Source of the DNA: a virus
Virus record (IMG/VR): IMGVR_UViG_3300036852_000099
Coordinates: 1-56,187 of that record
Strand: one strand, 5' to 3'
Length of the DNA stretch: 56,187 bases
The notes below the pieces were generated by a model. The model worked only from the letters and a program-made list of their open reading frames with translations. It ran no database searches and was not told the origin of the DNA. The translations under genes and the position numbers were made by a program. Position 1 is the stretch's first letter, and each line of letters starts with the position of its first letter. Positions 3,500-50,531 of this stretch are shown here, in pieces.

Positions 3500-3791
3500 C
3501 TTCCCTCCTTTTGAGTCTGGCCTCACTGACTTTGGTGGAAAAGCACACCTTACACTCACTGCGCAGACCGTAGCGGCCTGCAGGCTTACCCTTACGGGTT
3601 CGACGGTAGAAATAGCGAGGGACTGCGGGGTACTCCAGCCCACAGCCCTTGCACTCGATAGTACGGGCACGACAGGATAGGCATACACGCTGCAGGTGCA
3701 GGTGTGGTCGCTCTGACAACCACCCTGCACTACCAGTGAACATGGCCTCCTCGTACTCGTTACCACAGGCACTGCAACTAGACATTGGCAT
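3462..3791 (-). CDS. Small zinc-ribbon protein
   Basis: A 109-aa protein with four CxxC knuckles (CSAC, CLSC, CKGC, CKVC), enough for two structural zinc sites, followed by a very basic tail. This suggests nucleic-acid binding. The start at 3791 uses the GAGGAAG within the end of purB, whose stop it overlaps; a second ATG lies at 3785. It is the gene directly after purB and is translationally coupled to it. The precise role is unknown. Confidence 0.7.
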   Translation of the reverse strand: MPMSSCSACGNEYEEAMFTGSAGWLSERPHLHLQRVCLSCRARTIECKGCGLEYPAVPRYFYRRTRKGKPAGRYGLRSECKVCFSTKVSEARLKRREDDRHRGTPARRL

Positions 3792-5175
3792 TGACTTCCT
3801 CTATAGCCCGAATGCAGGCTAACACGCAGGGTTCGATCACGTGGCGCTCGTTGAATGCCCCGTTCACATTCAAGCTGTCCGGCCAGCGCGATGCTATGAC
3901 GTGCCTCAGCGACTGCATGATGGGGTAGTTCTTCACTAACTCGCCTATGGTGTGGTGCAGCGTGGTGCGATCCGAGTGGCGTGTGCGTAGGGCATACGAC
4001 AGGATGGTGGATGACCACACCCGCGAGTCGTTGAATACGTCACTATCGTACTTCATCTTCAGGGCAGTGACCGCGTTATTCAGGCTGTCCAGCATGTAGG
4101 CCGTGATCGAGGATACCTGCTGCCAGACCACCCGACGCTGGGCTGAGTCGTCCAGGGTTCGCATGTCGATCTGGTCGGCTGTAATGCCCCATGCACCAGT
4201 ACACAGGCTGTGGACTAGCTGCGACAGTGACGACAGCTGCTCCCACGTGGCTGGGTTGTGCTTGTGCGGCATGGCCGATGACCCGACTACACCGGATTCG
4301 TCCCACCACTCGCCCTCACTGTACAGGAATCGGGCGGTGATGGCCAGTCGGTGAATAGCCGCTGCTACTCGGTCTATCAGTGCAAGTAAGGCGTACTCGT
4401 TGTGGCGCGGGGCAGTCTGGGTGGCGTGTTTGGCCAGTTCCATGACCGTTGGTGGTATACGCATGTGATCACACACGGATGCTAACACGTCGCGTTCGAA
4501 CAAGGTAGAGGATAGGTCTACCTCGCGACGGATGAAACGACGCTGGACGTGGCTCGTGCCAACTGCACCGCGCACCGACTTGGCCTGAACCTTGAACTTC
4601 TCCAGGTCGAGAAAGATGCCCTGGAACTCGACCATGTGACCCATCAGCCGGAAGCCCTGCGTGATAGGCTCGGCTACCTGCATGTGGGTGTAACCTCGGC
4701 ACGGGTAGTCCTTAGTTGCTGCCACCTGTCGTGCCATCATCCGCACAACCCGCCGGAGCAGGTGTCGAATCTCAGTGACAGTCTGGGCTATGCGAACCGA
4801 GTCGACCAGATCGACCACATCGCTGCTCGTCATATCCAGGTGTACAAGGTCGTGTGGCATCGAACCACCGTCCTTTTCAACTAGGCGGTGGACTGCCCCT
4901 TGTGCCAGTTGGCGCAGGGCTTCGACCTCGTGACCGACCTCGCGTTCGTGGGTACGGACTGCCCTTACTAGTGCGTCCAAGCCCAAGTCGAACCACTCAT
5001 CGTTGTACTCCAGCAAGGCTTCAGCGGTAGTGACGAATGACAGGTCGCTTATACCTGCATAGTGCTTGGACTGGCACAAGGCCACCATCGCCCAGACCTG
5101 CAGCATCAGGCTGTACCGTTGCCCGTCATCCCAGATGTTGTCCATGTCGTTGGTAGTGTAGCGGCTGGCGTTCAT
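3778..5175 (-). CDS. purB: Adenylosuccinate lyase (PurB-like)
   Basis: A 465-aa member of the fumarase/aspartase superfamily, close to the usual PurB length. PurB removes fumarate from adenylosuccinate (and from SAICAR). Visible motifs: HEVEAL near residue 82, TSSDVVD at 117-123, the catalytic THMQVAEP block with His164, the signature loop GSSAMPHKHNP at 298-308, and LDDSAQRR near 341. All positions expected for activity are present. The start at 5175 was chosen because ATG overlaps the upstream stop (ATGA) with AGGTGAGG 5 nt before; the frame stays open upstream to 5358, but that extension lies inside the neighbour. In a phage that also encodes PurZ, the natural role is to convert the dGMP-aspartate adduct to 2-amino-dAMP. 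That role is inferred; the family call is firm. Confidence 0.95.
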   Translation of the reverse strand: MNASRYTTNDMDNIWDDGQRYSLMLQVWAMVALCQSKHYAGISDLSFVTTAEALLEYNDEWFDLGLDALVRAVRTHEREVGHEVEALRQLAQGAVHRLVEKDGGSMPHDLVHLDMTSSDVVDLVDSVRIAQTVTEIRHLLRRVVRMMARQVAATKDYPCRGYTHMQVAEPITQGFRLMGHMVEFQGIFLDLEKFKVQAKSVRGAVGTSHVQRRFIRREVDLSSTLFERDVLASVCDHMRIPPTVMELAKHATQTAPRHNEYALLALIDRVAAAIHRLAITARFLYSEGEWWDESGVVGSSAMPHKHNPATWEQLSSLSQLVHSLCTGAWGITADQIDMRTLDDSAQRRVVWQQVSSITAYMLDSLNNAVTALKMKYDSDVFNDSRVWSSTILSYALRTRHSDRTTLHHTIGELVKNYPIMQSLRHVIASRWPDSLNVNGAFNERHVIEPCVLACIRAIEEVNANV

Positions 5176-5465
5176 ACCCTCACCTTGAAGCGGGGTACGA
5201 CGCACACCAAATAGCTCTGGCGCGGCATGTAGGGTGGGGATTCGACTACAACGACAAGACCACCCTCCCCCAAATCGCCCACGATCCTGCCCTCTGTCCA
5301 TACGTCCTCCGTCTGGCCTACGGTCTGGCCTCCACCGTCGATAGTGAGTACGTGGCATGGTTCAGTACTCCTAGCCCATGCCTGCCGCGCTGCATCGAAG
5401 AGGTTCGCACCGCCTTCTTTGCGCATAAACTCAGGTCGGTTGTCCGTGTGGTTTCCGTTGTTCAT
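5172..5465 (-). CDS. Hypothetical protein upstream of purB
   Basis: A 97-aa protein. Its second half (GRIVGDLGEGGLVVVVES) looks like a small beta-barrel of SH3 type, a weak inference. It is coupled at both ends by ATGA overlaps: to the gene before it and to purB after it. The function is unknown. Confidence 0.7.
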   Translation of the reverse strand: MNNGNHTDNRPEFMRKEGGANLFDAARQAWARSTEPCHVLTIDGGGQTVGQTEDVWTEGRIVGDLGEGGLVVVVESPPYMPRQSYLVCVVPRFKVRV

Positions 5466-17473: not shown

Positions 17474-18848
17474 AGGCATAGTAGCCTTCGCCCATGACGT
17501 GATCGGACTGGACGGGTCAACCAAGAGCAAGACTCTAGCACCCTACCAAGCCGATATCCTCAGCCAGTTCGCACGAGACAAGCGTCTGGCAGTCCGAGGA
17601 TTACACGGCATCGGCAAGACCGCCATCGCATCGTGGGTGGTGCTGTGGGCGCTGTCAGTGTTCGAAGGCGATGTGAAGGTTGTGACCACAGCCAGCGCAT
17701 GGAGGCAGTTAACGCATTACCTCTGGCCGGAGATACGCAAATGGGCGCAGGTCTGCAAGTGGGAGGTCATGGACAATGGGGTACAGATCCGATACGGCAA
17801 GGAACTACTGGAGTACTCGATCAAACTGAACGCCAAAGAAGCCTTCCCTGTTGCGTCGAACAACCCCTCCCTTATTGAGGGTGCGCATGCCTCTACGCTG
17901 GTGTACGTGTTCGATGAGGCGAAGGCGATTCCGGACGAAACGTGGGACTCAGCCGAGGGTGCGTTCTCGACAGGCAACTGCTACGCACTAGCGATATCCA
18001 CACCAGGGGACGCAACTGGTCGATTCTACGACATCCACAGCCGGAAGGCGGGGTATGAGGATTGGGGTATACGGCACGTCACACTAGACGAAGCCATAGC
18101 TGCTGGGCGGGTCGACGCAGATTGGGCAGAAAAGCGGCGGATACAGTGGGGCGAGAACAGTCCGGTGTACCTGAACCGCGTATTAGGCGAGTTCAGTAAG
18201 AACGACCCGCATGCCCTCATCCCGCTGCAGTGGGTGGAGGAGTCCAACAACCTCTGGCATGAGATGGGTGGCAAAGGCAAGAAGGAAGACAGCCTGACAT
18301 ACGGCTTGGACGTTGCGTGGCAGGGCGATGACAAGTCCAGCCTAGCCCGTAAGCGGGGTGTCGTGGTCGAGTCCCTGGAGATGTACGGAAACTACGACCC
18401 GATGGAACTGGCTGGAATGGCCATAGTCCAGATGGCTGGCGATAAGGAGTCCGCCATAGCAGTCGACTCCAACGGCATCGGTGCAGGGGTATACGCACGA
18501 CTGAACGAACTCGGCTACAACGCAGTACCCTGTAACGTGTCCGAGGGTACAGATGAAAGGGACGAGTCTGGCGAGTTAGGGTTCTTCAACCTGCGATCCT
18601 TCATTTGGTGGAGGATGCGCGAGTTGCTCGACCCGAAGAACCCAGACCGCATAGCCCTCCCTCCTGATGATGGTCTTACTGGCGACCTGACTGCTCCGAA
18701 GTGGTCACCGACTAGTAAGGGTCTGATCAGGGTAGAGGGCAAGGAAGACATCAAAAAGCGGCTGAAACGGTCAACCGACTCAGCTGATGCAGTGGGTCTG
18801 GCAATCTACGCGGATATTGAAACACAGGCATGGACGGAGATATGGTAG
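17358..18848 (+). CDS. Terminase large subunit
   Basis: A 496-aa packaging motor. The ATPase half has Walker A GLHGIGKT (residues 81-88) and Walker B VYVFDE (182-187). The nuclease half has the expected acidic positions: TYGLDVAW, IAVDSNG and DSADAVGLAIY. It cuts and pumps DNA into the prohead with the small subunit and portal. The start is uncertain: ATG at 17358 or 17364 share the AAGGCGG site, and GTG at 17427 would reduce the overlap with the small subunit. It overlaps the portal fusion gene by 19 bases. Confidence 0.93.
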   Translation: MSMTLRYSPESKLTSKQRLGQSLVEGLSPSKHRNYQSPEGIVAFAHDVIGLDGSTKSKTLAPYQADILSQFARDKRLAVRGLHGIGKTAIASWVVLWALSVFEGDVKVVTTASAWRQLTHYLWPEIRKWAQVCKWEVMDNGVQIRYGKELLEYSIKLNAKEAFPVASNNPSLIEGAHASTLVYVFDEAKAIPDETWDSAEGAFSTGNCYALAISTPGDATGRFYDIHSRKAGYEDWGIRHVTLDEAIAAGRVDADWAEKRRIQWGENSPVYLNRVLGEFSKNDPHALIPLQWVEESNNLWHEMGGKGKKEDSLTYGLDVAWQGDDKSSLARKRGVVVESLEMYGNYDPMELAGMAIVQMAGDKESAIAVDSNGIGAGVYARLNELGYNAVPCNVSEGTDERDESGELGFFNLRSFIWWRMRELLDPKNPDRIALPPDDGLTGDLTAPKWSPTSKGLIRVEGKEDIKKRLKRSTDSADAVGLAIYADIETQAWTEIW

Positions 18849-21800
18849 AAAACGCACTGCTACAGCCATCTGCTATCCTCCCCTTCGATCCGGATGCTAT
18901 CACCAGGGCAGTCCAGAACCCTGAAGACGGGGATGGTGAGCGCTACGTCATCATGAACGACGACTTAGTGCCGTATTCAACCTACAGGTCGAGCTTCCAC
19001 ACTGCGTGGGAGCGGTCACTGTCTGGCCTGCAGGTTAGTGAGCAGGCTAAGCAGCAGGCATACGCGATATCCGCTGCAGCATTCGCAGCTACTCAGTACC
19101 GCTGTCTGACCATATCGCAAGTCCCTGGTGTGATAGTCGACCAGTCCAAGAACGATCCGGTGGAGTGGCATCCGCTTATTGGGTTCATGCCCTATATGGG
19201 GAAGCTCATGTGGCAGATCGAAGTGTCGCTGCTGATTTGGGGCGTATGCTACCTCAAGAAGGTGTACAACCGCTACGGCTACCCATCGAGCCTCTGCTGG
19301 GTGCATCCTGAGGATATCACGCCACAAACCGACCAGTACGATGAAGTGTACGAGTACTACGAACGCATGAGCGGCGTGGCCATCAAGCGTCATCAGATGG
19401 TGGAAATTCGGACGTTCGACCCTGACAGGTCACTGCAGGGGAAGTCGGCATATGAAGTCGCCATGTCCCACATCACTACTGAGCGCAATCTCGTGATGCA
19501 TGCTGGGTCGTTCTTCTTTAACTCAGCGCGTCCCGATGGCATCCTGGTTTCGAAGACCCGACTGGATAAGGAGGGTAAGCTCAAGGCCAAGAAGGATTGG
19601 GAGCAGTTCAAAGGGTCTGGTAACGCGTGGCAGACTTTCGTGTCGGGTGGCGATTGGGACTGGATACCCATCACGATTCCACCTGTCGACTTGGCCATGA
19701 CTGAACTGAAGGACGGGTCACAGAAGGACGTATGCGCTATCTTCCGGACTAACGGCGCTCTGATCGGTCTGGCCAGCGTCTCCGACCCGCTATCGGCGGG
19801 GTCTACACTGGCGACAGTTAAGCGGAATCACGTCGAAGCTGTCACCCTGCCAGAGTACAACGACATCGCCCACGACATGAACACGCAGTGGCTCTGGACT
19901 GACTTTGACGAGAAGAACTACTACACCCTGATAGCCAACGAAGCCGACATGCCGATCTTGTCGGATGTGTCAGGGGAAATGTCCACAGTTGCAGTGAACC
20001 TGACTAACCCGCTCAACCCTGTGGTCGACTACGACGAAGCGCGTAAGTTCATGAACCTATCACCCCGCGAGGGGTACATAGGTCGACCACCGGATCAGTC
20101 ACTGGCTATGGTCAACGGTACACTGATCACGGTTAACGAGGGTCGGCAGTTCCTGAGTCTTGAACCGTACCAGATTGACATGCTGAAGACACCAGACGGT
20201 AAGCTGATCCGAGCGTCTGATCTCGGCAAGTACCTGGATGCCACGATGGAACTGATAGTAAGCCCACCTGCTCCCCCAGCCGGAGGCGGATTCGGTGGTG
20301 GGTTCGGTCTGACAGGTGGTCAGCCCATGCTCCCATCCGGTGGACAACCACAGCCACCCACTGCACCGACACCGAATAACCCTTACGACGCATTCCGGCT
20401 TCCACTGTCGAACTCGCGTTCTGGCAGCGGGTGTGCAGTCGTGCTGCAGTTCAGTGGTGATGAGTTGGTGAGGTCTATCCAGACCATCCTCAAGACCCAA
20501 CTGCCAGACAGCATCGCCCATGTCTGGTGTGATCCTAAGGACTTCCACCTTACACTGTACCAGTGCGAGGTATGCTCGATGGCTCAGGAAACCGAGCTAT
20601 ACTCAGCCCTGAATGTGACCAAACCTCTCCCCGTCATGGTGAAGGGTACTACCTCCTTCCAGCAGGACGGGTATATGGTCTTGGTGCTGCAGATCGAACC
20701 ATCCGAAGAGTTAGTGGCGCTGCAGTCGAAGATCTACGAGAAGGCTGAGTCGATTGGGATCACCAGTTCATCGGACTACAGCGAACCGTCGAAGTGGAAG
20801 CCCCACATCACCGTAGCCTACCTTGATCCGGAGACACCCATCGAGGAGTCGTTGTTCAATGTCCAAGTTCAGCCAACCGCCATCGCAGTTACTAAATCGG
20901 AGTACCAGCCTACTTACACCAAAGATATCGCTGCTGCACCTAAAGAGGAAGTGGGTCGAGGACGCAGGTCGAATACACCCTACGTGGAGGTTGCAGTCGA
21001 CTTCGCCAATAACGCCTTCCTTAAGACCGCACAGCGTGTACTGTCTCATTGGGCGGCGACGGAGGGAGGCATAGAGGTCAACTGGTATGACCCAGCCACC
21101 TTGCGTATGCCCCTGATAGAGATGCAGAACCTCACCTCCATGCAGGCGGCACGGGCTATGGAACTGGTGTCCTCGGCTGGTATGGCCAGGGCAGATGTGT
21201 ACACGGGTGAATACGCGATCCGCGACGGTCAAATAGGCGTGGTGGTTGCAGCGACTGATGAGGTCGACAACATCCGTAGTGCAGCGATGCTGCAACTGGA
21301 CGAATTAGCAGATACCTTCCATGCCGAGGGATGGTCACCGTTTGTGCCACTAGGGGCGATCCAGGGCGAGTCCGAGGCTCGGAGTCTATGGGCTTCCGAT
21401 GGTTATCCGCTGGTACTGTCGGCTATTACCATGTACACGGGTACACTGCGTCGTGGGCGCTGGGAGTTGCGCCACAAGACGCAGGTATCAAAGGAACTGG
21501 TCAACTGGCAGCGGGTAGTAGAGCGCAAAGGTCGCGATCACTGGTTCACACCAGAATACGCAGGTCAGCTGGTGTCGGACTTCGTACGGTCAGCCCTGCA
21601 AGACACCGATGCCACTATCGATGAGGTATTCGCACGGGCTAAGGAGATCGAAGAGTCCGGCCTGACCTACGTCGATCCTGATATCGAACCCACACCAGAG
21701 GAGGCGCTGGAGTATTGGCGCAACTACGACGAGGCTAAGGCCGACATAGGGCAGGACTGGTACTCGTACATGACTAGGGTTCTACCGGATATCTTGTCGT

Positions 21801-23284
21801 GGATCAAGACGGAGACCAAGCCATCCTCGGTGACCGAGGTTTTGGCACGACACCACGATAAACTCCGCGACGATTGGGTAGGGACGGAGGAGAATCCTGG
21901 TGCACTGTACTCGGTGGTTCTGGCAGGCATGGCGGCTGGGAACGAGGCACTAGTTAAGGGTGTCAGCATGAACCCTGAAAGCCGCGTTGCAAAGGTCGGT
22001 GTGGCCATCGAGTGGGATCTCCTGTCCACACAGGCTCGTGACTTTGCCAGACAGTACACCTACAAACTCATCAAGGGTATCGACGCGACGACTGCCAGGA
22101 TGGTGCAGGGGATATTCGATGAGTGGACTACTACAGGCAAGCCATTCACGGAACTGGCCAAGGCGCTGGAGGTCGTGTTCAAGGATAAACAACGCGCTGC
22201 ACAGATAGCCCAGACCGAGGGTATACGGGTCTATAACGAGGGCGCATTCAAACGCTGGACGGATGTGGGTGTTAAACGGGCTAAATGGCGCACAGTCCAG
22301 GATGGCATCGTCTGTCGGGTATGCAAGCCACTGAATGGTCAGGTGGCTGACATGAAGACAGGCTGGATCAGCCCATCGCGTAAGGGCGGGTTCAAGACCT
22401 ACACCACCTCAGCCCATAGCGGGTGCAGGTGCTTCCGGACACCAGACACGACGGGCATACTGGAGGATGTTAAACAGGATTACAAGCCCGTAAAGGTCGT
22501 AGCCCCAGCACCACCGCCGATGCAGGTTTCGTCCGAGTTCGTCGCTCCGACACCCGCACGGGTAGCAGGTCTGGATGCCTACCGTGATCTTAACACAGAT
22601 GAGCCGACTGGCCGAATCCGCCAACCTGGAGATCCGGTACTAGGCGAGATTTACAAGCGGAACGGCTACGATGGTAGGCCGAATGTGGTAACGCCAGAGA
22701 CTATCGACCAGCTACGGGCGGATGGTCATAGGATCGTCTATCGTGGTGTCACTGATGCCAAGTTCGCTGAGCAGTTCAGGGACGGGGAGTACTTCCCTGG
22801 TCTAGGGATATACGGCAATGGGACATACACGGCAGTGGGCAGCGATGCCGACAACCACACCGATGCTCTGGACACAGCCCGTGAGTATGCTACCGAGCAG
22901 GGGTACGTGATGCGCATGGCGATCCATAAGGATGCTAAGATCGTCACCCTGAAGGAGATCCAGCAGATGGCGCAGGACGAGCTAGAGGCCTCGGCGGAAA
23001 GAGTACGGCAGGCTAGGAAAGCCGTGTACGCAGTACCCCACGACCACCCTGATGCAGCTGCTCTGGAGGCGACATTCCAGAGTGAGAAGGCCAGGGACAA
23101 CGACGTGCATAGGCTGGTGATGGATGAAGGCAGATATGCCTCCATCATGGGCTACGATGGTGTACTGGTCGAACGCAACTCAGCAGCGGGTCAAGGTATA
23201 GGCGACTACTTGGTGATGCTGAACCGAACCGCCATAGCAGTAGATACGAGAAACTGGAATGGGAAAGTGAGCTATAACGACTAA
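18830..23284 (+). CDS. Portal / tandem 2H phosphoesterase / MuF / ADP-ribosyltransferase-like fusion
   Basis: One 1,484-aa ORF. Residues 1-475: phage portal. 478-517: Gly/Pro linker. 530-700: 2H phosphoesterase (LigT-like) with both motifs, H573-L-T and H659-I-T. About 716-846: a second 2H-like unit whose two His are replaced (R759, F838), so probably inactive. About 1010-1205: MuF minor head domain, with C1162-x-x-C1165 and HSGCRC at the end. About 1260-1475: a region like phage ADP-ribosyltransferases: YRG at 1304-1306, GIYGNGTYTA near 1326-1335, then KDAKIVT and GIGDYLVMLN. The portal ring would sit at the DNA entry vertex with MuF inside the head. The extra domains may be cleaved and injected; that is inferred. 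The ART call is less certain than the rest. Confidence 0.85.
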   Translation: MDGDMVENALLQPSAILPFDPDAITRAVQNPEDGDGERYVIMNDDLVPYSTYRSSFHTAWERSLSGLQVSEQAKQQAYAISAAAFAATQYRCLTISQVPGVIVDQSKNDPVEWHPLIGFMPYMGKLMWQIEVSLLIWGVCYLKKVYNRYGYPSSLCWVHPEDITPQTDQYDEVYEYYERMSGVAIKRHQMVEIRTFDPDRSLQGKSAYEVAMSHITTERNLVMHAGSFFFNSARPDGILVSKTRLDKEGKLKAKKDWEQFKGSGNAWQTFVSGGDWDWIPITIPPVDLAMTELKDGSQKDVCAIFRTNGALIGLASVSDPLSAGSTLATVKRNHVEAVTLPEYNDIAHDMNTQWLWTDFDEKNYYTLIANEADMPILSDVSGEMSTVAVNLTNPLNPVVDYDEARKFMNLSPREGYIGRPPDQSLAMVNGTLITVNEGRQFLSLEPYQIDMLKTPDGKLIRASDLGKYLDATMELIVSPPAPPAGGGFGGGFGLTGGQPMLPSGGQPQPPTAPTPNNPYDAFRLPLSNSRSGSGCAVVLQFSGDELVRSIQTILKTQLPDSIAHVWCDPKDFHLTLYQCEVCSMAQETELYSALNVTKPLPVMVKGTTSFQQDGYMVLVLQIEPSEELVALQSKIYEKAESIGITSSSDYSEPSKWKPHITVAYLDPETPIEESLFNVQVQPTAIAVTKSEYQPTYTKDIAAAPKEEVGRGRRSNTPYVEVAVDFANNAFLKTAQRVLSHWAATEGGIEVNWYDPATLRMPLIEMQNLTSMQAARAMELVSSAGMARADVYTGEYAIRDGQIGVVVAATDEVDNIRSAAMLQLDELADTFHAEGWSPFVPLGAIQGESEARSLWASDGYPLVLSAITMYTGTLRRGRWELRHKTQVSKELVNWQRVVERKGRDHWFTPEYAGQLVSDFVRSALQDTDATIDEVFARAKEIEESGLTYVDPDIEPTPEEALEYWRNYDEAKADIGQDWYSYMTRVLPDILSWIKTETKPSSVTEVLARHHDKLRDDWVGTEENPGALYSVVLAGMAAGNEALVKGVSMNPESRVAKVGVAIEWDLLSTQARDFARQYTYKLIKGIDATTARMVQGIFDEWTTTGKPFTELAKALEVVFKDKQRAAQIAQTEGIRVYNEGAFKRWTDVGVKRAKWRTVQDGIVCRVCKPLNGQVADMKTGWISPSRKGGFKTYTTSAHSGCRCFRTPDTTGILEDVKQDYKPVKVVAPAPPPMQVSSEFVAPTPARVAGLDAYRDLNTDEPTGRIRQPGDPVLGEIYKRNGYDGRPNVVTPETIDQLRADGHRIVYRGVTDAKFAEQFRDGEYFPGLGIYGNGTYTAVGSDADNHTDALDTAREYATEQGYVMRMAIHKDAKIVTLKEIQQMAQDELEASAERVRQARKAVYAVPHDHPDAAALEATFQSEKARDNDVHRLVMDEGRYASIMGYDGVLVERNSAAGQGIGDYLVMLNRTAIAVDTRNWNGKVSYND

Positions 23285-40986: not shown

Positions 40987-41016
40987 TTGTGTAGAACGCC
41001 CGATCTGTGGTAAAAT
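40987..41016 (+). promoter_or_regulatory. Rightward promoter before the lysis region
   Basis: TTGTGT (40987-40992), an 18-bp spacer, TAAAAT (41011-41016) within CTGTGGTAAAATGGAAG, the same core seen at the leftward promoters. It would start transcription about 10 nt before the first ATG considered for the next gene. Confidence 0.65.
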
Positions 41017-41032
41017 GGAAGGAAGAGGTAGT

Positions 41033-41461
41033 ATGCTGATGAAACCGAGACGACTTAGGAACGTAGTACGGCACGTGAACCGAGTAGCTGCAGTGATACA
41101 CCTACTCGTCGCACTGGTCGTGCTACTGCACCCATCCAAACCTAGCGAGTTCATTGTGTCAGTGTTGGGTGGATACTTCAGTACCCAAGCTCTGTCGTTC
41201 CTAATAGCTATGGCAGGGGTTAGGTGGGCGATATGGCCGATGACCTCATCCTGGTTGATGCTCTGTTGCCTGCCCATGCTGGTGCTTGCAGCATTCAATA
41301 CCGCATACCTGTTGATTGAAGAAACGCAGTCACTATGGCCTCCTATTGTGTACTACGGCTGTGGTGTCATCGTAATATCAGTTAACTGGTACTATCTACT
41401 GGAGACTGCAGGTGGAAGATTTGACGTTCCTATCGTTCCAAGTTCCGACACCCACACCTGA
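41033..41461 (+). CDS. Four-helix membrane protein, possible holin
   Basis: A 142-aa protein from ATG 41033 (GAAGAGG upstream); the frame also opens at 41015. Four hydrophobic segments: VIHLLVALVVLL, FIVSVLGGYFSTQALSFLIA, LMLCCLPMLVLAAFNTAYLL and YYGCGVIVISVNWYYLL. The N-terminus is basic. It lies at the start of the lysis region and could be a holin or holin partner. It overlaps the next gene by 50 bases. Confidence 0.6.
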   Translation: MLMKPRRLRNVVRHVNRVAAVIHLLVALVVLLHPSKPSEFIVSVLGGYFSTQALSFLIAMAGVRWAIWPMTSSWLMLCCLPMLVLAAFNTAYLLIEETQSLWPPIVYYGCGVIVISVNWYYLLETAGGRFDVPIVPSSDTHT

Positions 41462-42056
41462 TCTAGACCCGACTAATATCGGGTCGGTCATAACAGCCGT
41501 AAGTGTGATCGCGATTTTCATCGCCAATCTTATCATCCAATACAAGGCTGGTAAGAAGGAGATACCCAACCAGTCAAAAGATGTAGTAGATGTGGTGAAC
41601 GAGAATAAGCACCTAAAGGAGAAGGTGGACAGTCTACTGGCAGCTAACACCAAGCTGCTGTCCATGACGAACCTCGGCACGATAGTCTGCATCGAGGACG
41701 ACCCGAATGACACCGACCTGCTACGCAGGCAGCTGAAACGGATCGGGCTGGCCAATCCGGTGGTGTGGTTCGATAGTCTGGAGATGGCCTACATCTTCAT
41801 TGGTGAAAACGCGGTGCTGTTCATCATGGTCGACGTTAGCATGATAAGCAATGGCTTCCGATTTCTAGAGACGCTGAAGGACAACCCTGACACCAGGGAT
41901 ACACCCATCATACTGGTGTCAGGGACGCAGGTGGAGGACATCACAGGATACCGGAAGGGTGCTATAGGCTACTGTGAAAAGCCAGTAAACATCGAGAAGC
42001 TGCTGAATGTACTGAACCTTCACGGGTTCGACATGAGTATAAGGATGGTACTATGA
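41412..42056 (+). CDS. Membrane-anchored CheY-like receiver protein
   Basis: A 214-aa protein with a GTG start and GGAG 7 nt before it. Residues 24-43 form one transmembrane helix, 50-85 a short coiled coil, and 88-210 a response-regulator receiver domain. All key positions are there: acidic pocket E95-D96-D97, phospho-acceptor D141 (IMVDVSM), Ser170 (LVSGTQ) and Lys190 before Pro (CEKPVN). No output domain or kinase is present in the window. A receiver of this kind normally takes a phosphate from a histidine kinase. Coupling to membrane and lysis genes suggests control of lysis timing or interference with host signalling; both are inference. Confidence 0.85.
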   Translation: MEDLTFLSFQVPTPTPDLDPTNIGSVITAVSVIAIFIANLIIQYKAGKKEIPNQSKDVVDVVNENKHLKEKVDSLLAANTKLLSMTNLGTIVCIEDDPNDTDLLRRQLKRIGLANPVVWFDSLEMAYIFIGENAVLFIMVDVSMISNGFRFLETLKDNPDTRDTPIILVSGTQVEDITGYRKGAIGYCEKPVNIEKLLNVLNLHGFDMSIRMVL

Positions 42057-43177
42057 CAGGAACAGAGAACAGATTCGGGTACAACTACCTAGCCGTGCCT
42101 GATGTGGTGGAGGAAATGCGACATGCCCGTGCTGCAAGGCTGGGTGGTGGTCTGTTCTTCCAGAACAACCTCGATTTTGCCTGTGCATTTAAAGCGGATG
42201 ACCCGCGTAGGAACGTCGTACTACGGAACTGGCCAGATCGGGCTGTACCAGCCGACCCTGAAAAGTGGCTACGGGATGCCCAGCGACTAGGGGAGGGAGG
42301 GCTGATCGTCCAGACCTGTAACGAGGTAGGACTGACCAATGCTAATATCGCCTTCCACGAGTGGTTGCTGGAGCGGATCAAACGCGACAACATCAAGACT
42401 AACTTCGGCATACTGGCGCAGTCCGTAGGGACACCCGACCCTGACCACGACTGGCCACGTGCTGAGAAGATCCTCAAACTAGCCGATGACCTGCGTGATC
42501 GAGTCAAGCTGATCCTTCACGAGTACTACGGGGCGGTGGTCACGTCTGGGTTTCATGGTGGAAACCCGACCCTGATACAGGAGGAAACGTGGCCTAAGAA
42601 CACCGAAGGCATCACCATGTGGCACTGTGGCAGGTACAAGTTCCTCAAAAAGTACCTGAAGTCGAAGGGTCGTCCGCTGCTCCCCATTATCATCGGGGAG
42701 TTCAATGCCGACTTCACCAGCGATATCGGGCTGTGGCTGTCGCGTCTGAAGAGCACAAAAGGCCAGTACGATATCGTGGACGGGTGGCGCGATCTAGTCG
42801 ACCAGTGGCGTAGTTGGTGGCCTATGTGGGACGCTGCTACTGCCCTGATGAAACAAGCGGCCTATGCCGACCAGTACATCTACACGGACGAGGAAATCGA
42901 GACCATCCTGATGTACTGTCGCTGGAACGATGGCTCGTGGGGTACGTACCAGACCAACCCCGAAGTCGACAAGCAGATGGAAGCCTATCGCAGTCCAGCC
43001 CGTATACCCCCCACAACTCCTCCGGACGAGCCACCGGACGAGCCTGATCCTACCGATCCTCCGCCTGTCCTAGGTGGTAAGTTAGTGTTTAATCTGGAGG
43101 TGACCGTTCCATTAGACAACCCGACCAGTGTATCGGCCAAGATTAGTAATGTCAAAGTAGAAAAGGATAGTAAGTAA
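42053..43177 (+). CDS. Clan GH-A-like glycosidase, candidate endolysin
   Basis: A 374-aa protein. It has the pattern of a TIM-barrel retaining glycosidase: CNEVGL with N90-E91 as acid/base pair, HEYYG at 156-160, and IIIGEFN with E216 as nucleophile. A Pro/Asp/Glu-rich linker (about 316-340) precedes a small beta domain at the C-terminus, perhaps for wall or surface binding. It lies between membrane-protein genes, so a role in cell-wall lysis is likely; a tail-borne glycan enzyme is the alternative. There is no signal peptide. Confidence 0.65.
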   Translation: MTGTENRFGYNYLAVPDVVEEMRHARAARLGGGLFFQNNLDFACAFKADDPRRNVVLRNWPDRAVPADPEKWLRDAQRLGEGGLIVQTCNEVGLTNANIAFHEWLLERIKRDNIKTNFGILAQSVGTPDPDHDWPRAEKILKLADDLRDRVKLILHEYYGAVVTSGFHGGNPTLIQEETWPKNTEGITMWHCGRYKFLKKYLKSKGRPLLPIIIGEFNADFTSDIGLWLSRLKSTKGQYDIVDGWRDLVDQWRSWWPMWDAATALMKQAAYADQYIYTDEEIETILMYCRWNDGSWGTYQTNPEVDKQMEAYRSPARIPPTTPPDEPPDEPDPTDPPPVLGGKLVFNLEVTVPLDNPTSVSAKISNVKVEKDSK

Positions 43178-43630
43178 ATGAATCCAGAACAACTCTTGCA
43201 GGTACTCCTACAGCTGCTCACGGATGCCACCTACATCCCTGCAGCGGGGCTGGGTATCGTAGCATTCACCAACGTGATCAAGTTCGTACTTACCAAAGTA
43301 GGCTTCACTCTGCCAGACATGGCACAGGTCATCATCGCGTTGGTGGTGCAGTTCATCGTATGGTCAGCGTGGATGCTCTTCACCCGACTCGGCCTAATCG
43401 ACCAGTTCACTCAGTGGTACGACGCAGCGGTGACAGTGGTCATGGCGCTATTCCCACTGCTCGGCGGCACATTCGCAGCGCATAAGATCTACCAAGCTTC
43501 GAAAGCCCAGCCAGCTACGGTGTCCGGTGTTATTGGTGCGCAGACTGTGGAGGTTGGGGGATCGGGCGCTGTACCTATCCTCGGCTACAGCGTCCCGAAA
43601 AAGAAGGAGATGCGACGCTACTCTGACTAG
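43178..43630 (+). CDS. Putative holin
   Basis: A 150-aa membrane protein with three hydrophobic segments (about residues 17-38, 46-68 and 83-100) and a basic C-terminal end (PKKKEMRR). It follows the glycosidase gene directly and closes the rightward operon. This fits a class I holin or a related phage LL-H-type holin; no unique motif. Confidence 0.6.
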   Translation: MNPEQLLQVLLQLLTDATYIPAAGLGIVAFTNVIKFVLTKVGFTLPDMAQVIIALVVQFIVWSAWMLFTRLGLIDQFTQWYDAAVTVVMALFPLLGGTFAAHKIYQASKAQPATVSGVIGAQTVEVGGSGAVPILGYSVPKKKEMRRYSD

Positions 43631-45949: not shown

Positions 45950-46232
45950 ACTCTCCCCTAATAGCTATAGCCTCTGCCTCATCAGCAGTTCGAATTAAAC
46001 CGATACGTGCACCTGCAGCTTTCCATTCCAGCAGCTTCATGCACTGAGCGATGGTCGGGTGGTCGTCATAGCTCTTTTTGGCCTCCATAGCGAAAGCCCG
46101 ACCCTGGTACGATCCAACGAGGTCTGGTTCACCCAGACGCGAGAAGGGTGAGCCGTGAATCTTGATCACGACACACCCCAATTTCTTTAATCGCGCCAGG
46201 GCAGCATCGACCACTGCCTTTTCTAGCGGCAT
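45882..46232 (-). CDS. VRR-NUC domain nuclease
   Basis: A 116-aa stand-alone VRR-NUC protein: GEPDLVG (catalytic Asp), then AMEAKKS (E-x-K), then a conserved Gln in PTIAQ and WKAAGARIGLI. These PD-(D/E)XK-fold nucleases act on branched or flapped DNA. It is complete and lies beside the SNF2 helicase. Confidence 0.88.
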   Translation of the reverse strand: MPLEKAVVDAALARLKKLGCVVIKIHGSPFSRLGEPDLVGSYQGRAFAMEAKKSYDDHPTIAQCMKLLEWKAAGARIGLIRTADEAEAIAIRGEYVGLTEILRIQDETLGTPEDRT

Positions 46233-46963
46233 TAGACCTCCGCTGGCACTTTACGCCATGCACCCAAGCTACGGGCTAGTACCAGGAGGCAATTCTCCAT
46301 GTCAGGGTACACCCACGTATCCAGGTCATGCGCTTCGACGTGCTTGGCTAGTTCGTCCTTGTCACCCCACACCACGACTGTCTTGCCCAGCGACTTGGCC
46401 ATCTCGATCTCACGGATAGTACCAAATCCGCGTTTGTCGGTCATGTTGACCACCATGCCCTGACAGCTGGCCAGTGCAGCGCGGTTGATCTGGCTGATGA
46501 AGACCCTAGGCAGCGGTTGGTTGTGTCCTACCTGGAAGGCGGTAGACGGGTCATAGCTGGTGATGCCATAGTTGGCCAAGGTCGACTTGGCGTGTTTCCT
46601 CCAGGTCTTGGCGTATAGCTCATCAACCGCGTCGATGCTCCCTGCCAGATAGACGGTAGGATGTGGGTGCTGCTCGTCGCCTAGGATCGGGATTTCCTCA
46701 CTGCCCCATGACCCATCCAGCAGCATCTTCCCGATTAGGCCGTAGTTCAGCACGTCCAAGAACGTATCCTCGATACCCTCGAAGTTAGGGGCGTATGCCC
46801 CTGGTCGGGTGAGGTTTAGCAGGCGGTGGATTTTGTCAGTCAGCCGGACTGCCACACCGTATACACCAGTCTTACTGATGTTGTCACTGCCATAGTCGGC
46901 ATTCTTGCGCTCCATCAGGTCGAGCGCGTCCTTGATGATCTTCTCAGCGGCGGCTTTGTTCAT
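46232..46963 (-). CDS. DUF1599 / nucleoside deoxyribosyltransferase-like fusion
   Basis: A 243-aa protein. ATG at 46963 follows AAAGGGAAC; the frame is open much further upstream, but that part lies inside neighbours. Residues 1-90 match DUF1599 (nucleotide-modification-associated domain 1): MERKNADYGSDN, then LTDKIHRLLNL, then DTFLDVLNYGLI, a helical fold reminiscent of MazG-type NTP pyrophosphatases. Residues 102-232 match the nucleoside 2-deoxyribosyltransferase fold: VYLAGSID and GFGTIREIEMAKSLGK, whose Glu fits the catalytic position. That family moves or removes the base of deoxynucleosides or dNMPs. Set in the PurZ operon, it is the best candidate for dNTP pool editing. Substrate unknown. 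Confidence 0.75.
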   Translation of the reverse strand: MNKAAAEKIIKDALDLMERKNADYGSDNISKTGVYGVAVRLTDKIHRLLNLTRPGAYAPNFEGIEDTFLDVLNYGLIGKMLLDGSWGSEEIPILGDEQHPHPTVYLAGSIDAVDELYAKTWRKHAKSTLANYGITSYDPSTAFQVGHNQPLPRVFISQINRAALASCQGMVVNMTDKRGFGTIREIEMAKSLGKTVVVWGDKDELAKHVEAHDLDTWVYPDMENCLLVLARSLGAWRKVPAEV

Positions 46964-47144
46964 CGTTCTGTTCCCTTTCATGTGACTCGTAGCAGTGTGC
47001 GTGAATGTCCTGGTCGTGCACCCAGGAGTATGCGATCTGGTCGACGTGCACATCGACTTCGTGCTTGCAGTAGGGGCAGATTGGGAATACGCTGTCGAAC
47101 ATGCCCTCATCGCCCTTGTCCCACATATCTCCGATGTTTATCAC
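46944..47144 (-). CDS. Small Cys/His (zinc-finger-like) protein
   Basis: A 66-aa protein with a GTG start overlapping the dUTPase stop. CPYC followed by HEVDVH and HAHC gives a possible zinc site. It overlaps the start of the DUF1599 fusion. The function is unknown. Confidence 0.6.
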   Translation of the reverse strand: MINIGDMWDKGDEGMFDSVFPICPYCKHEVDVHVDQIAYSWVHDQDIHAHCYESHEREQNDEQSRR

Positions 47145-47629
47145 TTTCCTGTACTCCCAAACCCAGCGCTACCACGCTCGGTGTCCTTAGTCGCGTACTG
47201 GAACGCGTCGATTGGCATGAACTCCCACTGCACTGGAATCACCAGATGGTGGAAAAGTATCTGAGCCAGCCTAGTCCCTTTCGGTACTATGACCGTCTTG
47301 CCGTTGGGATTGGACACACCGATGAATAGCTCACCTGTGTACCCCTGGTCGATTATGCCCTCCTGCACCTGCAGATGCCACGTGCGAAAGGTCGAACTGC
47401 GATTGGTGATCCGGCCATACACCCCATCGGGCATCCGGATATGCACCCCTGTGTGAACGTCCACAAAGCTCCCTGGAGGGATCTCGATGTGTTCGATGGT
47501 GTGCAGGTCGTAGCCTGCATCACCCTTATACTTCCGTGTAGGCTGGCACGTGTCCAGATTGGCAGGGGCGAATATGACCGGAGGCGGCGCTAGCACCCAC
47601 AGCGCAAATCGCCTGAGTAGTTGCCTCAC
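47141..47629 (-). CDS. dut: dUTPase
   Basis: A 162-aa trimeric-type dUTPase with all five motifs: DAGYDL (37-42), GRITNRSS (72-79), GIIDQGYTGEL (91-101), GTRLAQILF (118-126) and RGSAGFGSTG (152-161). It hydrolyses dUTP to dUMP and pyrophosphate, keeping uracil out of DNA and feeding dTMP synthesis. The GTG start overlaps the PurZ stop, so the two are translationally coupled. Confidence 0.95.
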   Translation of the reverse strand: MRQLLRRFALWVLAPPPVIFAPANLDTCQPTRKYKGDAGYDLHTIEHIEIPPGSFVDVHTGVHIRMPDGVYGRITNRSSTFRTWHLQVQEGIIDQGYTGELFIGVSNPNGKTVIVPKGTRLAQILFHHLVIPVQWEFMPIDAFQYATKDTERGSAGFGSTGK

Positions 47630-48723
47630 AGGTCTTCCCCTGTCTCGACTACCTGAAATCCCTCGCCACCTGTGCCGACCAGCGACACCGGAGTACCAAA
47701 CCGCGCTTCCACGTAGTCGATGAATGCACGGGCGGTCTGGCTGAGTTCATGCTCCAGGGTCTTGCCACGATCCTGAGGACTGATGTAGTCCATGAAGGTG
47801 ATCGCGATGGAAGTAGGTGCGTTTAACAGCACTGACTGGTCGACCAAATCCTCGTCCCACCGACCAACACGGCGTACCTTTTTGGTGACGGTGGTCTTTT
47901 CCACGACTGTCTCACCAATTAACTCCGACAGTTGATCCCACGTTACCTCATCCTTCAGGTCACCACTGTTCCCAGCCACACGGATAGGGTAGGTGCGGCA
48001 TACCAGCATTACCTGATCCACGTGCTGGGGCGGGATGCCAGCATCAGCGGCCATCTGTGCGGCGTTCGTGCCGTTGCTGGTCACATATGGCCACTGGCCA
48101 TGAATAAGGTCGAGACCACTGCCCTGTGTACCCTCCAGGAGGATATCTTGGCCGAGGTTGCGCTGCTGCTGCAGGTAGCGCGGGGTGTCGTCGTGGAGGC
48201 ACTGCGACAGCTTACTGCCATCGCTGAACTCAACATCACCCTCCTGTTTGATGTACTCGGCAACAGTCAGGAACTTCAGCGGATCGCGCATCAGGCGATC
48301 ACGTCGTGCTGCACCGACACCCTTACCAGTCGAACCGATACGCTGGTGTAGCTCACCCTGTACACCTCCTTCCTCGTCCATGTGCCATTGGGATATCACC
48401 CCACAGCGGCTGTCCACGATCAGGCGGTGGGTGAAATACGGGTCGATTTCCAGTATCTCGTTAACTTCGCGTTTCAGGATGTCCATCTCGATCAGACCAC
48501 CCCGACCAATCACCAGGATCGCGTTAGGGTTCACCCAGCCACATGGGACAGTCTGCATGACCCGCTTCACACCCTGGTGCATGAAAGTGTGACCTGCGTT
48601 CGTGCCACCCGTCCGGACATGGACATTGTAGCGATCCGCGATATAGGCCACGATTACACCCTTGCCCTCCGACCCAAACTGCCCTCCGACTAGTGCGAGG
48701 ACGTGTCCTGTTCCTTTAGCCAT
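47626..48723 (-). CDS. purZ: PurZ: 2-aminoadenylosuccinate synthetase
   Basis: A 365-aa member of the adenylosuccinate synthetase family, shorter than bacterial PurA (about 430). The P-loop reads GGQFGSEGKG: Ser18 stands where PurA has its catalytic Asp. This substitution is the reported mark of phage PurZ, which joins dGMP and aspartate (using ATP or dATP) on the way to 2-amino-dAMP. Other family motifs remain: GGTNAGHT with catalytic His45, GSTGKGVGAA, LEGTQGSGLD and a C-terminal SLVGTGGEGF. GGAG lies 8 nt before the ATG. It sits directly after the DNA polymerase and is coupled to dut. The call is firm; the base in the virion DNA still has to be measured. Confidence 0.95.
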   Translation of the reverse strand: MAKGTGHVLALVGGQFGSEGKGVIVAYIADRYNVHVRTGGTNAGHTFMHQGVKRVMQTVPCGWVNPNAILVIGRGGLIEMDILKREVNEILEIDPYFTHRLIVDSRCGVISQWHMDEEGGVQGELHQRIGSTGKGVGAARRDRLMRDPLKFLTVAEYIKQEGDVEFSDGSKLSQCLHDDTPRYLQQQRNLGQDILLEGTQGSGLDLIHGQWPYVTSNGTNAAQMAADAGIPPQHVDQVMLVCRTYPIRVAGNSGDLKDEVTWDQLSELIGETVVEKTTVTKKVRRVGRWDEDLVDQSVLLNAPTSIAITFMDYISPQDRGKTLEHELSQTARAFIDYVEARFGTPVSLVGTGGEGFQVVETGEDL

Positions 48724-48728
48724 TGTCT

Positions 48729-50483
48729 TTACTCCGTCATTAGTTGATAGGGCTGGAGTTCGCTCCAGCGTTTGCCGACTGAAACATCCACCTTAAACCG
48801 TACCTTCCACTCCTGGTCGGGCGGTGGTGGGATAGTGACCATAGTCTCTGCAGCGGCATCGATCAGCCAGGGCTTATCCTCCGGTATCTCCATTACTAGA
48901 CTGTCGTGAACGTGTAGTAGTTGGTGTAGACCCTCACCACGCAGGTTGCGCCACACGTTAGTAGCAGCAATCCGCATCATCTCGGCCACACCACCCTGAA
49001 TCAGGCCAGAACTGGCCGTGTTCTCGTAGTTGTGCTCATCGAATCGGCGCAGTCGTCCAGTGAACATCTGGATATACCCGTCGCGCTTGGCAGCACCCAG
49101 ACAGGCTTGGTACAGCCGCTTCATTTCGGGGTGCACCTTGTGGTACTGGTTCAGGTACTCCCTAGCCTGTTTGATGCTAACCTTCAGGTCATTCGCCAGT
49201 GCCTTGTCGCCTATGCCGTACTGCATCGAGAAGTTCAGCCGCTTTGCAGCGTCATAGTCGATGTTGACCCACGCGGCGGTTTCCTTATGGACGTTTACAC
49301 CGTTGTTGATCATGCGCAGCATATTGGTGGCGTTGGCGTAGTGTGCGCCTAGGTAGATCTCCGCCTGCTTATAGTCGGCCACCACGAACAGGTGACCAGG
49401 ACGAGCCACGAAGACCTTCTTGATGCCAGATCGCGGGTCGTTGATGTCGTCTTTGATCTGGCGTGGGATCGCCTGCAGGTTAGGCTCACTGCAGGACAAC
49501 CGACCCGTAGCCGTACCTGTCAGGTTCAGGTTAGGGTGGATCACCCCATCAGCATCCGCATGCTCCAGGAAGGCCTCGTAGTAGGCACTCTTCATTTTCA
49601 CATGGCGACGGTATCGGATGATCTCGTCTACTCCAGGTTTGTCGAGCGTTTCCAGGATATCAACAGCACTGCTACTCACACCAAAGAGAGCCTGCACCTG
49701 CTTGGGGCTGTTAGGGTTGACCGGATAGCCGACTATACGAGCCAGCGCGATCTCGGCCTCCTTCTTTCCGTCGATACTGTCGTGTATGCTCTGGCGTGTT
49801 TGTCGTTTGTCCAGCAGCATACCCCTGCGCTCAATGTCCACTACAGCCAGTTCGAAGACGTTAGTCTCCTGCCACAGCCGATACAGCCCAGAGTCCGCTA
49901 GCTTTTCAGCGTAGAAATCACGGAGTCGTCTGGTGTACAGTACGTCGTCCTCGGCATAGGCACTGACCATACTGGCAGGCAACTTCCACATCTGGCCTTT
50001 GTCACCTACGTGCATACTGGCACGGCGCTTGGTGTAGCCTGCTGCTTTCAGTGCGGCCAGCAGTTCTTCGGATTCATCCGCTGCAGTTGGGTCGATGTAC
50101 TTACGGGCGAGGTACTTCAGGGCGTGGCTGTGTTCATTCTCGTTGTACAGGTGGGCAGCTAACATCGCGTCCTCTATCCTGGTCGGGAACGCGAATCCTT
50201 CATTCAGCAGGTACTTGATATCGAACTTACCATTCCAGAACAGCAGGGTCTTGGGCAGTGCCAGTGCCATGCGCAGCGCGTCCATCTGGCGTGGGTCAAG
50301 GTTCTCGCCTTCCCCATGCCGGAATGGGAAGTAGTAGGACTCATTATCAGCTTCTATGGCGATACCGCAGATCAGGTCACCACCATAGGTGTCCAGTCCT
50401 GTTGTTTCCAAGTCAACAGTGATACGTTCGCAGTCCCAAACGTGCACCATCGCATCATAGAAGTTGTCGCTATTTACCAGCAT
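48729..50483 (-). CDS. Family A DNA polymerase, DpoZ-like candidate
   Basis: A 584-aa polymerase. ATG at 50483 has AAAGGAC before it. The 3'-5' exonuclease is intact: DLETTGLD (D24, E26), NGKFD (88) and YAEDD (176-180). The polymerase domain has TGRLSCSEPNLQAIP (327-340), motif A VVADYKQAE (D370), the O-helix KRLNFSMQYG (414-423) and motif C HVHDSLV (D527), where Ser528 replaces the usual Glu of HDE. It lacks a 5' nuclease. It lies directly before purZ. Polymerases in this position in known Z phages form the DpoZ group; membership here needs a tree. Confidence 0.92.
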   Translation of the reverse strand: MLVNSDNFYDAMVHVWDCERITVDLETTGLDTYGGDLICGIAIEADNESYYFPFRHGEGENLDPRQMDALRMALALPKTLLFWNGKFDIKYLLNEGFAFPTRIEDAMLAAHLYNENEHSHALKYLARKYIDPTAADESEELLAALKAAGYTKRRASMHVGDKGQMWKLPASMVSAYAEDDVLYTRRLRDFYAEKLADSGLYRLWQETNVFELAVVDIERRGMLLDKRQTRQSIHDSIDGKKEAEIALARIVGYPVNPNSPKQVQALFGVSSSAVDILETLDKPGVDEIIRYRRHVKMKSAYYEAFLEHADADGVIHPNLNLTGTATGRLSCSEPNLQAIPRQIKDDINDPRSGIKKVFVARPGHLFVVADYKQAEIYLGAHYANATNMLRMINNGVNVHKETAAWVNIDYDAAKRLNFSMQYGIGDKALANDLKVSIKQAREYLNQYHKVHPEMKRLYQACLGAAKRDGYIQMFTGRLRRFDEHNYENTASSGLIQGGVAEMMRIAATNVWRNLRGEGLHQLLHVHDSLVMEIPEDKPWLIDAAAETMVTIPPPPDQEWKVRFKVDVSVGKRWSELQPYQLMTE

Positions 50484-50501
50484 GGTCGTGTCCTTTGGGT
50501 A

Positions 50502-50523
50502 GGGGTGGTGGCTGTCCCACCCC
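50502..50523 (-). promoter_or_regulatory. Intercistronic hairpin before the polymerase ribosome site
   Basis: A 7-bp perfect stem GGGGTGG / CCACCCC with an 8-nt loop between the DUF669 stop (50532) and the polymerase ribosome site. Same placement as the leader hairpins at 10-16.5 kb. Confidence 0.6.
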
Positions 50524-50531
50524 AATAGAGG

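Follow-up and report, generated by a model that had tools for sequence, protein, structure and literature searches.

A gene of a 56,187-base IMG/VR virus record (the whole of which, analysed at full length, we call the window) raises the question of whether a phage can hold a phosphorylation-dependent receiver at the host membrane as part of its lysis module. The initial annotation, made from the sequence by itself, had proposed a membrane-tethered, CheY-like receiver lying in the lysis region. How phages tune their lysis time to the state of the host is an old question, usually answered by holin/antiholin genetics. A phosphorylation domain within the lysis cassette would, if real, let the signalling or energy state of the host act directly on lysis. 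Here, we describe the protein and its neighbours, the related receivers of other phages and the roles that such receivers might play.

The receiver protein and its neighbours

The open reading frame is a real gene (Table 1); it overlaps the preceding gene by 50 nt, and its stop codon and the start codon of the next gene share the sequence ATGA. The single transmembrane helix initially annotated was borne out as the only strong hydrophobic helix of the protein (hydropathy 2.39). Its N-terminal flank has no Lys or Arg and four Asp or Glu, its C-terminal flank has four Lys or Arg and two Asp or Glu, and because of these charges the receiver is predicted to be cytoplasmic. The coiled coil that had also been annotated is likely, and supported if not strongly: helices are predicted at residues 54-64 and 66-84, but their heptad score (by a simple scoring of our own) was matched by 17 of 500 shuffles.

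Table 1. Coordinates of the receiver gene, its parts and its neighbours in the window
Feature	Position	Strand	Remarks
Small membrane protein	41015..41461	+	~3-4 hydrophobic helices
Ribosome-binding site	41401..41404	+	GGAG, for GTG start, 7 nt spacing; from sequence
Fused TM, helical linker and receiver protein	41412..42056	+	214 aa
Transmembrane (TM) helix	41478..41534	+	residues 23-41; predicted N-out/C-in
Helical, coiled-coil-like linker	41571..41663	+	residues 54-84
Receiver domain	41676..42017	+	residues 89-202; D141 codon 41832-41834
Presumed glycosidase/endolysin	42053..43177	+	motif resemblance only
Holin-like protein	43178..43630	+	small; several hydrophobic helices

Residues 91-201 matched PF00072 (E = 7.7e-10; 39.4 bits versus a cut-off of 30.2), the one match to this family in the whole record, and PDB entry 3heb matched the receiver at 1e-9. 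Structure prediction, which had been suggested as a check, gave the full (beta-alpha)5 order, mostly with pLDDT values of 80-94 over the domain, when the model was built from an 8-row alignment (single-sequence prediction was poor, pLDDT 38), and the modelled receiver matched the structures of DivK, Rcp1 and CheY. A viral protein structure, A0A6J7WWP8 (227 aa), also matched, with 185 aligned columns. Alignment with Escherichia coli CheY placed D141, S170 and K190 opposite D57, T87 and K109. The claim that every phosphorylation residue is present therefore stood for these three residues, but the acid pair is E95/D96 and not the two aspartates first reported. The active site is complete and apparently active, as judged from these residues.

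Although the receiver resembles CheY, DivK and Rcp1 in its fold and active-site residues, those proteins are host encoded and soluble, have cognate kinases and lack a TM anchor. The predicted anchor argues against a CheY role in chemotaxis, as it speaks against free diffusion to the motor. We rejected a PhoB/OmpR-type regulator, since the protein ends soon after the receiver, with no DNA-binding output domain. We also rejected the cREC of jumbo phages, a divergent receiver linked to NAD/ADP-ribose enzymes (PMC7824862): the window receiver is a classical PF00072 match, an annotated cREC ranked 28th by fold (E 0.066), and no NAD/ADP-ribose enzyme was recognised nearby. A search for a cellular origin returned only weak generic matches.

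The initial annotation had placed the gene between a four-helix membrane protein and a glycosidase. The multi-helix membrane protein was recovered upstream, in the slot held by the upstream membrane protein in phages PB15 and XX1924, with no detectable sequence similarity to that of PB15. The downstream gene, on the other hand, had no match in Pfam, PHROGs, NCBIfam or PDB, so that its glycosidase label is unproven, and no better endolysin candidate emerged among the other window open reading frames tested. Family searches with the holin-like protein also gave no match. As none of the three neighbours has a convincing family match, the lysis label is, in the window phage, one of anatomy. The record as a whole carries terminase, portal and capsid matches; its receiver, glycosidase and terminase had no close relatives in viral_contigs, and a direct search of annotated phages with the receiver and glycosidase found none at threshold.

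Receivers beside lysis genes in Alteromonas phages

Searching with successive receivers led to Alteromonas phages of several families (V22, A5, V19, PB15, XX1924, R8W, H4/4 and R9Y1-3). All single-domain receivers inspected in annotated complete phage genomes adjoined lysis-type genes, and all annotated isolate carriers infect Alteromonas. The earlier statement that phage receivers are rare holds for annotated phages. Directly upstream of the receiver lies a gene for a small TM and helical protein, often with a 4-nt overlap (R8W, H4/4, R9Y2, PB15 and XX1924; in PB15 with the receiver start shifted upstream to 5992), and the genes beside it encode an endolysin, a holin or an Rz spanin. The proposed search for the same gene order thus succeeded.

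The myovirus V22 and the schitovirus A5 share a run of TM/helical protein, receiver, Rz spanin with a nested Rz1-like lipoprotein gene and 2-TM protein, which in A5 is followed by an annotated endolysin; IMG/VR relatives have this arrangement as well. As in the window, the TM/helical part stands directly before the receiver and the active-site residues are kept (V22 gp29-gp30-gp31, A5 gp10-gp12), with the Rz-like spanin gene next; unlike in the window, there are two separate genes, and the receivers are 21-28% identical to that of the window. The Rz1-like lipoprotein genes, which overlap the end of the Rz-like gene in these two phages (L004 4729-5028; L012 6723-7055), are missing from the deposited annotation.

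In PB15, the gene of a multi-helix membrane protein is followed by that of XhlA (phrog_937, 1.8e-16) and then by the receiver gene, after which come the genes of an M15-like endolysin (phrog_894, 1.6e-31) and a holin (phrog_3427, 2.6e-40); XX1924 keeps this order, but a phrog_1501 gene takes the place of the endolysin gene. This cassette comes near to the window order of membrane protein, helical and TM protein, receiver, lysis-type gene and small membrane protein. It differs in its XhlA-type partner with a C-terminal TM helix, in its separate receiver and in the residues that follow the last strand, KS instead of KP; window residues 1-87, unlike the PB15 partner, did not match XhlA models.

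In R8W and H4/4 (Autographiviridae, Foturvirus), the TM/helical protein and receiver, in that order, lie between an upstream holin (7e-14) and a downstream membrane protein, while in the siphoviruses R9Y1-3 the pair is followed by an endolysin (1.7e-37; R9Y3 by search match only). These phages have, like the window protein, an N-terminal TM helix and a further helix before a receiver, here adjoining a holin or endolysin, but encode them in two genes with a 4-nt overlap. R8W and R9Y2 have the gene pair in common (35% and 46% identity) and different downstream genes, so the pair behaves as a unit. In V19, a TM protein and receiver face genes judged by eye to be holin-like and DUF5675-like.

The two-gene form therefore occurs in three or more sequence groups of Alteromonas phages, and the window protein corresponds to a fusion of this unit, with its order unchanged. 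By the gene-fusion argument, joining in the window of products that are separate elsewhere suggests that the TM/helical and receiver products interact. We found no published case of a fused, membrane-fixed receiver; the initial statement that no membrane-fixed form in a lysis cassette was known stands for the fusion but not for the two-gene form. Similarly, the placement in a lysis region gains from the same gene order in unrelated phages, although the window's own presumed lysis genes lack family matches.

To put this proximity in proportion, we note that each of the 13 records checked has one receiver. Phage lysis genes often come after tail fibres, so part of the proximity could reflect a shared late position. 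In genomes of ~53-91 genes, a lone gene placed at random would fall within or next to a four-gene lysis cassette in ~5-10% of cases per lineage, and the joint chance over three sequence groups (V22/A5, PB15/XX1924 and R8W/R9Y) is ~4e-4, a rough value that ignores late-gene clustering and the incomplete sampling of phage receivers. V22 and A5 count here as one event, since they gained the region together by transfer (PMC10579305).

Additional viral scans, based on PB15/XX1924 and on mixed alignments, added nothing new. In one IMG/VR contig (L014 5001-5679), a receiver overlaps the gene of a helical protein with a C-terminal TM helix next to a tail-completion gene; we treat it as a lead and left it out of the lysis cases. 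Many receiver-bearing "phage" records that resemble bacterial chromosome, some of them inspected (LM 4-11-1, SA 1306, MD-2021a, faecal scaffolds and Pseudomonas phage Y11), were excluded. Stenotrophomonas phage Bhz63 has a different kind of protein at a distance from its lysis genes: a PhoP-like regulator of 239 aa, with a kinase-like gene after it.

V22 gp30 and A5 gp11, whose neighbours are given there as of unknown function, were published as CheY-like class II auxiliary metabolic genes belonging to a host-recognition module (PMC7289586, PMC10579305), and R8W gp48 as PhoB, with a suggested role in phosphate adaptation (PMC8228385); gp48, at 153 residues, is too short for a PhoB DNA-binding domain. 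The literature search, with subscription papers and preprints outside it, found no link between these receivers and lysis. A lysis role, if true, would correct these annotations.

Active site, selection and candidate roles

The acid pair, Asp, Ser/Thr and Lys were kept in 11 of 12 aligned receivers, at identities below 30% between groups. Active-site loss in homologues, which the initial annotation had named as evidence against itself, was found in V19 but not in the other 11: the V19 receiver (L026 3998-4450) lacks the Asp, Ser/Thr and Lys and is a pseudo-receiver within the usual gene pair, so phosphorylation is not always needed. The three closest receiver pairs gave dN/dS values of ~0.06-0.16, indicating that the phage receivers are probably under strong purifying selection; the receiver tree had long branches, and its groups were not firm. 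No histidine-kinase ATPase domain exceeded threshold in 13 records and no Hpt domain was found in eight, so phosphoryl groups would come from the host or from small molecules. Together, conservation and selection favour a working switch.

From their position and anatomy, we conclude that these receivers recur in lysis cassettes as a membrane-receiver component, with a putative lysis function that would probably consist in adjustment through host phosphodonors. The N-out TM helix and the helical linker would keep the receiver on the cytoplasmic side of the inner membrane, close to the holin and the rest of the lysis proteins. Either histidine kinases or acetyl phosphate, as host phosphodonors, might phosphorylate D141; phosphorylation could then shift the receiver surface and alter its self-association or its contacts with a holin, a spanin or an XhlA-like protein, and either change may adjust the timing of membrane opening. 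For the window protein, we put the chances as evenly balanced that it is a membrane-anchored cytoplasmic receiver of the phage lysis module, with host-phosphodonor input adjusting membrane opening. Since the same pairing occurs as adjacent genes in unrelated viruses, phage lysis may take input from host signalling. It is accordingly conceivable, and we say so tentatively, that in unrelated phage families a dedicated membrane-held receiver in the lysis cassette, fused in the window phage, reads the phosphorylation state of the host and gates the action of holin or spanin, which would be a new kind of lysis control.

Retention of the active site without a phage kinase would also be expected of a decoy that drains phosphoryl groups from host kinases of envelope-stress, chemotaxis or phosphate systems and so damps the late-infection host response. 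Membrane placement fits the interception of membrane kinases, relatives are already classed in papers as CheY- or PhoB-type auxiliary genes, and proximity to lysis genes would follow from late expression. However, such a decoy needs neither 4-nt coupling to a TM/helical gene nor endolysin, holin or spanin neighbours across several lineages, and V19 retains the gene although its active site is lost; we consider this explanation unlikely.

V19 bears in the opposite direction on phosphorylation-independent docking, in which the receiver fold, pseudo-receiver style, would only dock onto a lysis protein or keep an oligomer together: without Asp, Ser/Thr and Lys, it retains an open frame, a TM partner and its position facing lysis-like genes. 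The retention of every active-site residue in the remaining receivers, despite the divergence between groups, makes docking improbable. We give still less credence to the receiver as a passenger that moves with tail-fibre or host-recognition cassettes and has no lysis role. The horizontally moved host-recognition module common to V22 and A5 does include the receiver (PMC10579305), but the constant partners of the receiver in R8W, R9Y and PB15 are a TM/helical gene and lysis genes, and purifying selection of this strength is not what a passenger would show.

Other features of the window phage

A 1,484-aa open reading frame (18830-23284, plus strand) appears to be a fusion, as its start matches portal proteins and its end matches head-morphogenesis proteins. 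The product of the gene at 46232-47110 (minus strand) matches DUF1599 (nucleotide modification) and, weakly, nucleoside deoxyribosyltransferase. In addition, a PurZ-like adenylosuccinate synthetase (phrog_1211, 1.5e-73) adjoins a family A DNA polymerase and a dUTPase, and a Lyase_1 protein (adenylosuccinate-lyase-type superfamily) is encoded elsewhere (47626-50525 and 3778-5358, both minus strand); given these PurZ-like and Lyase_1 genes, the phage DNA may contain 2-aminoadenine.
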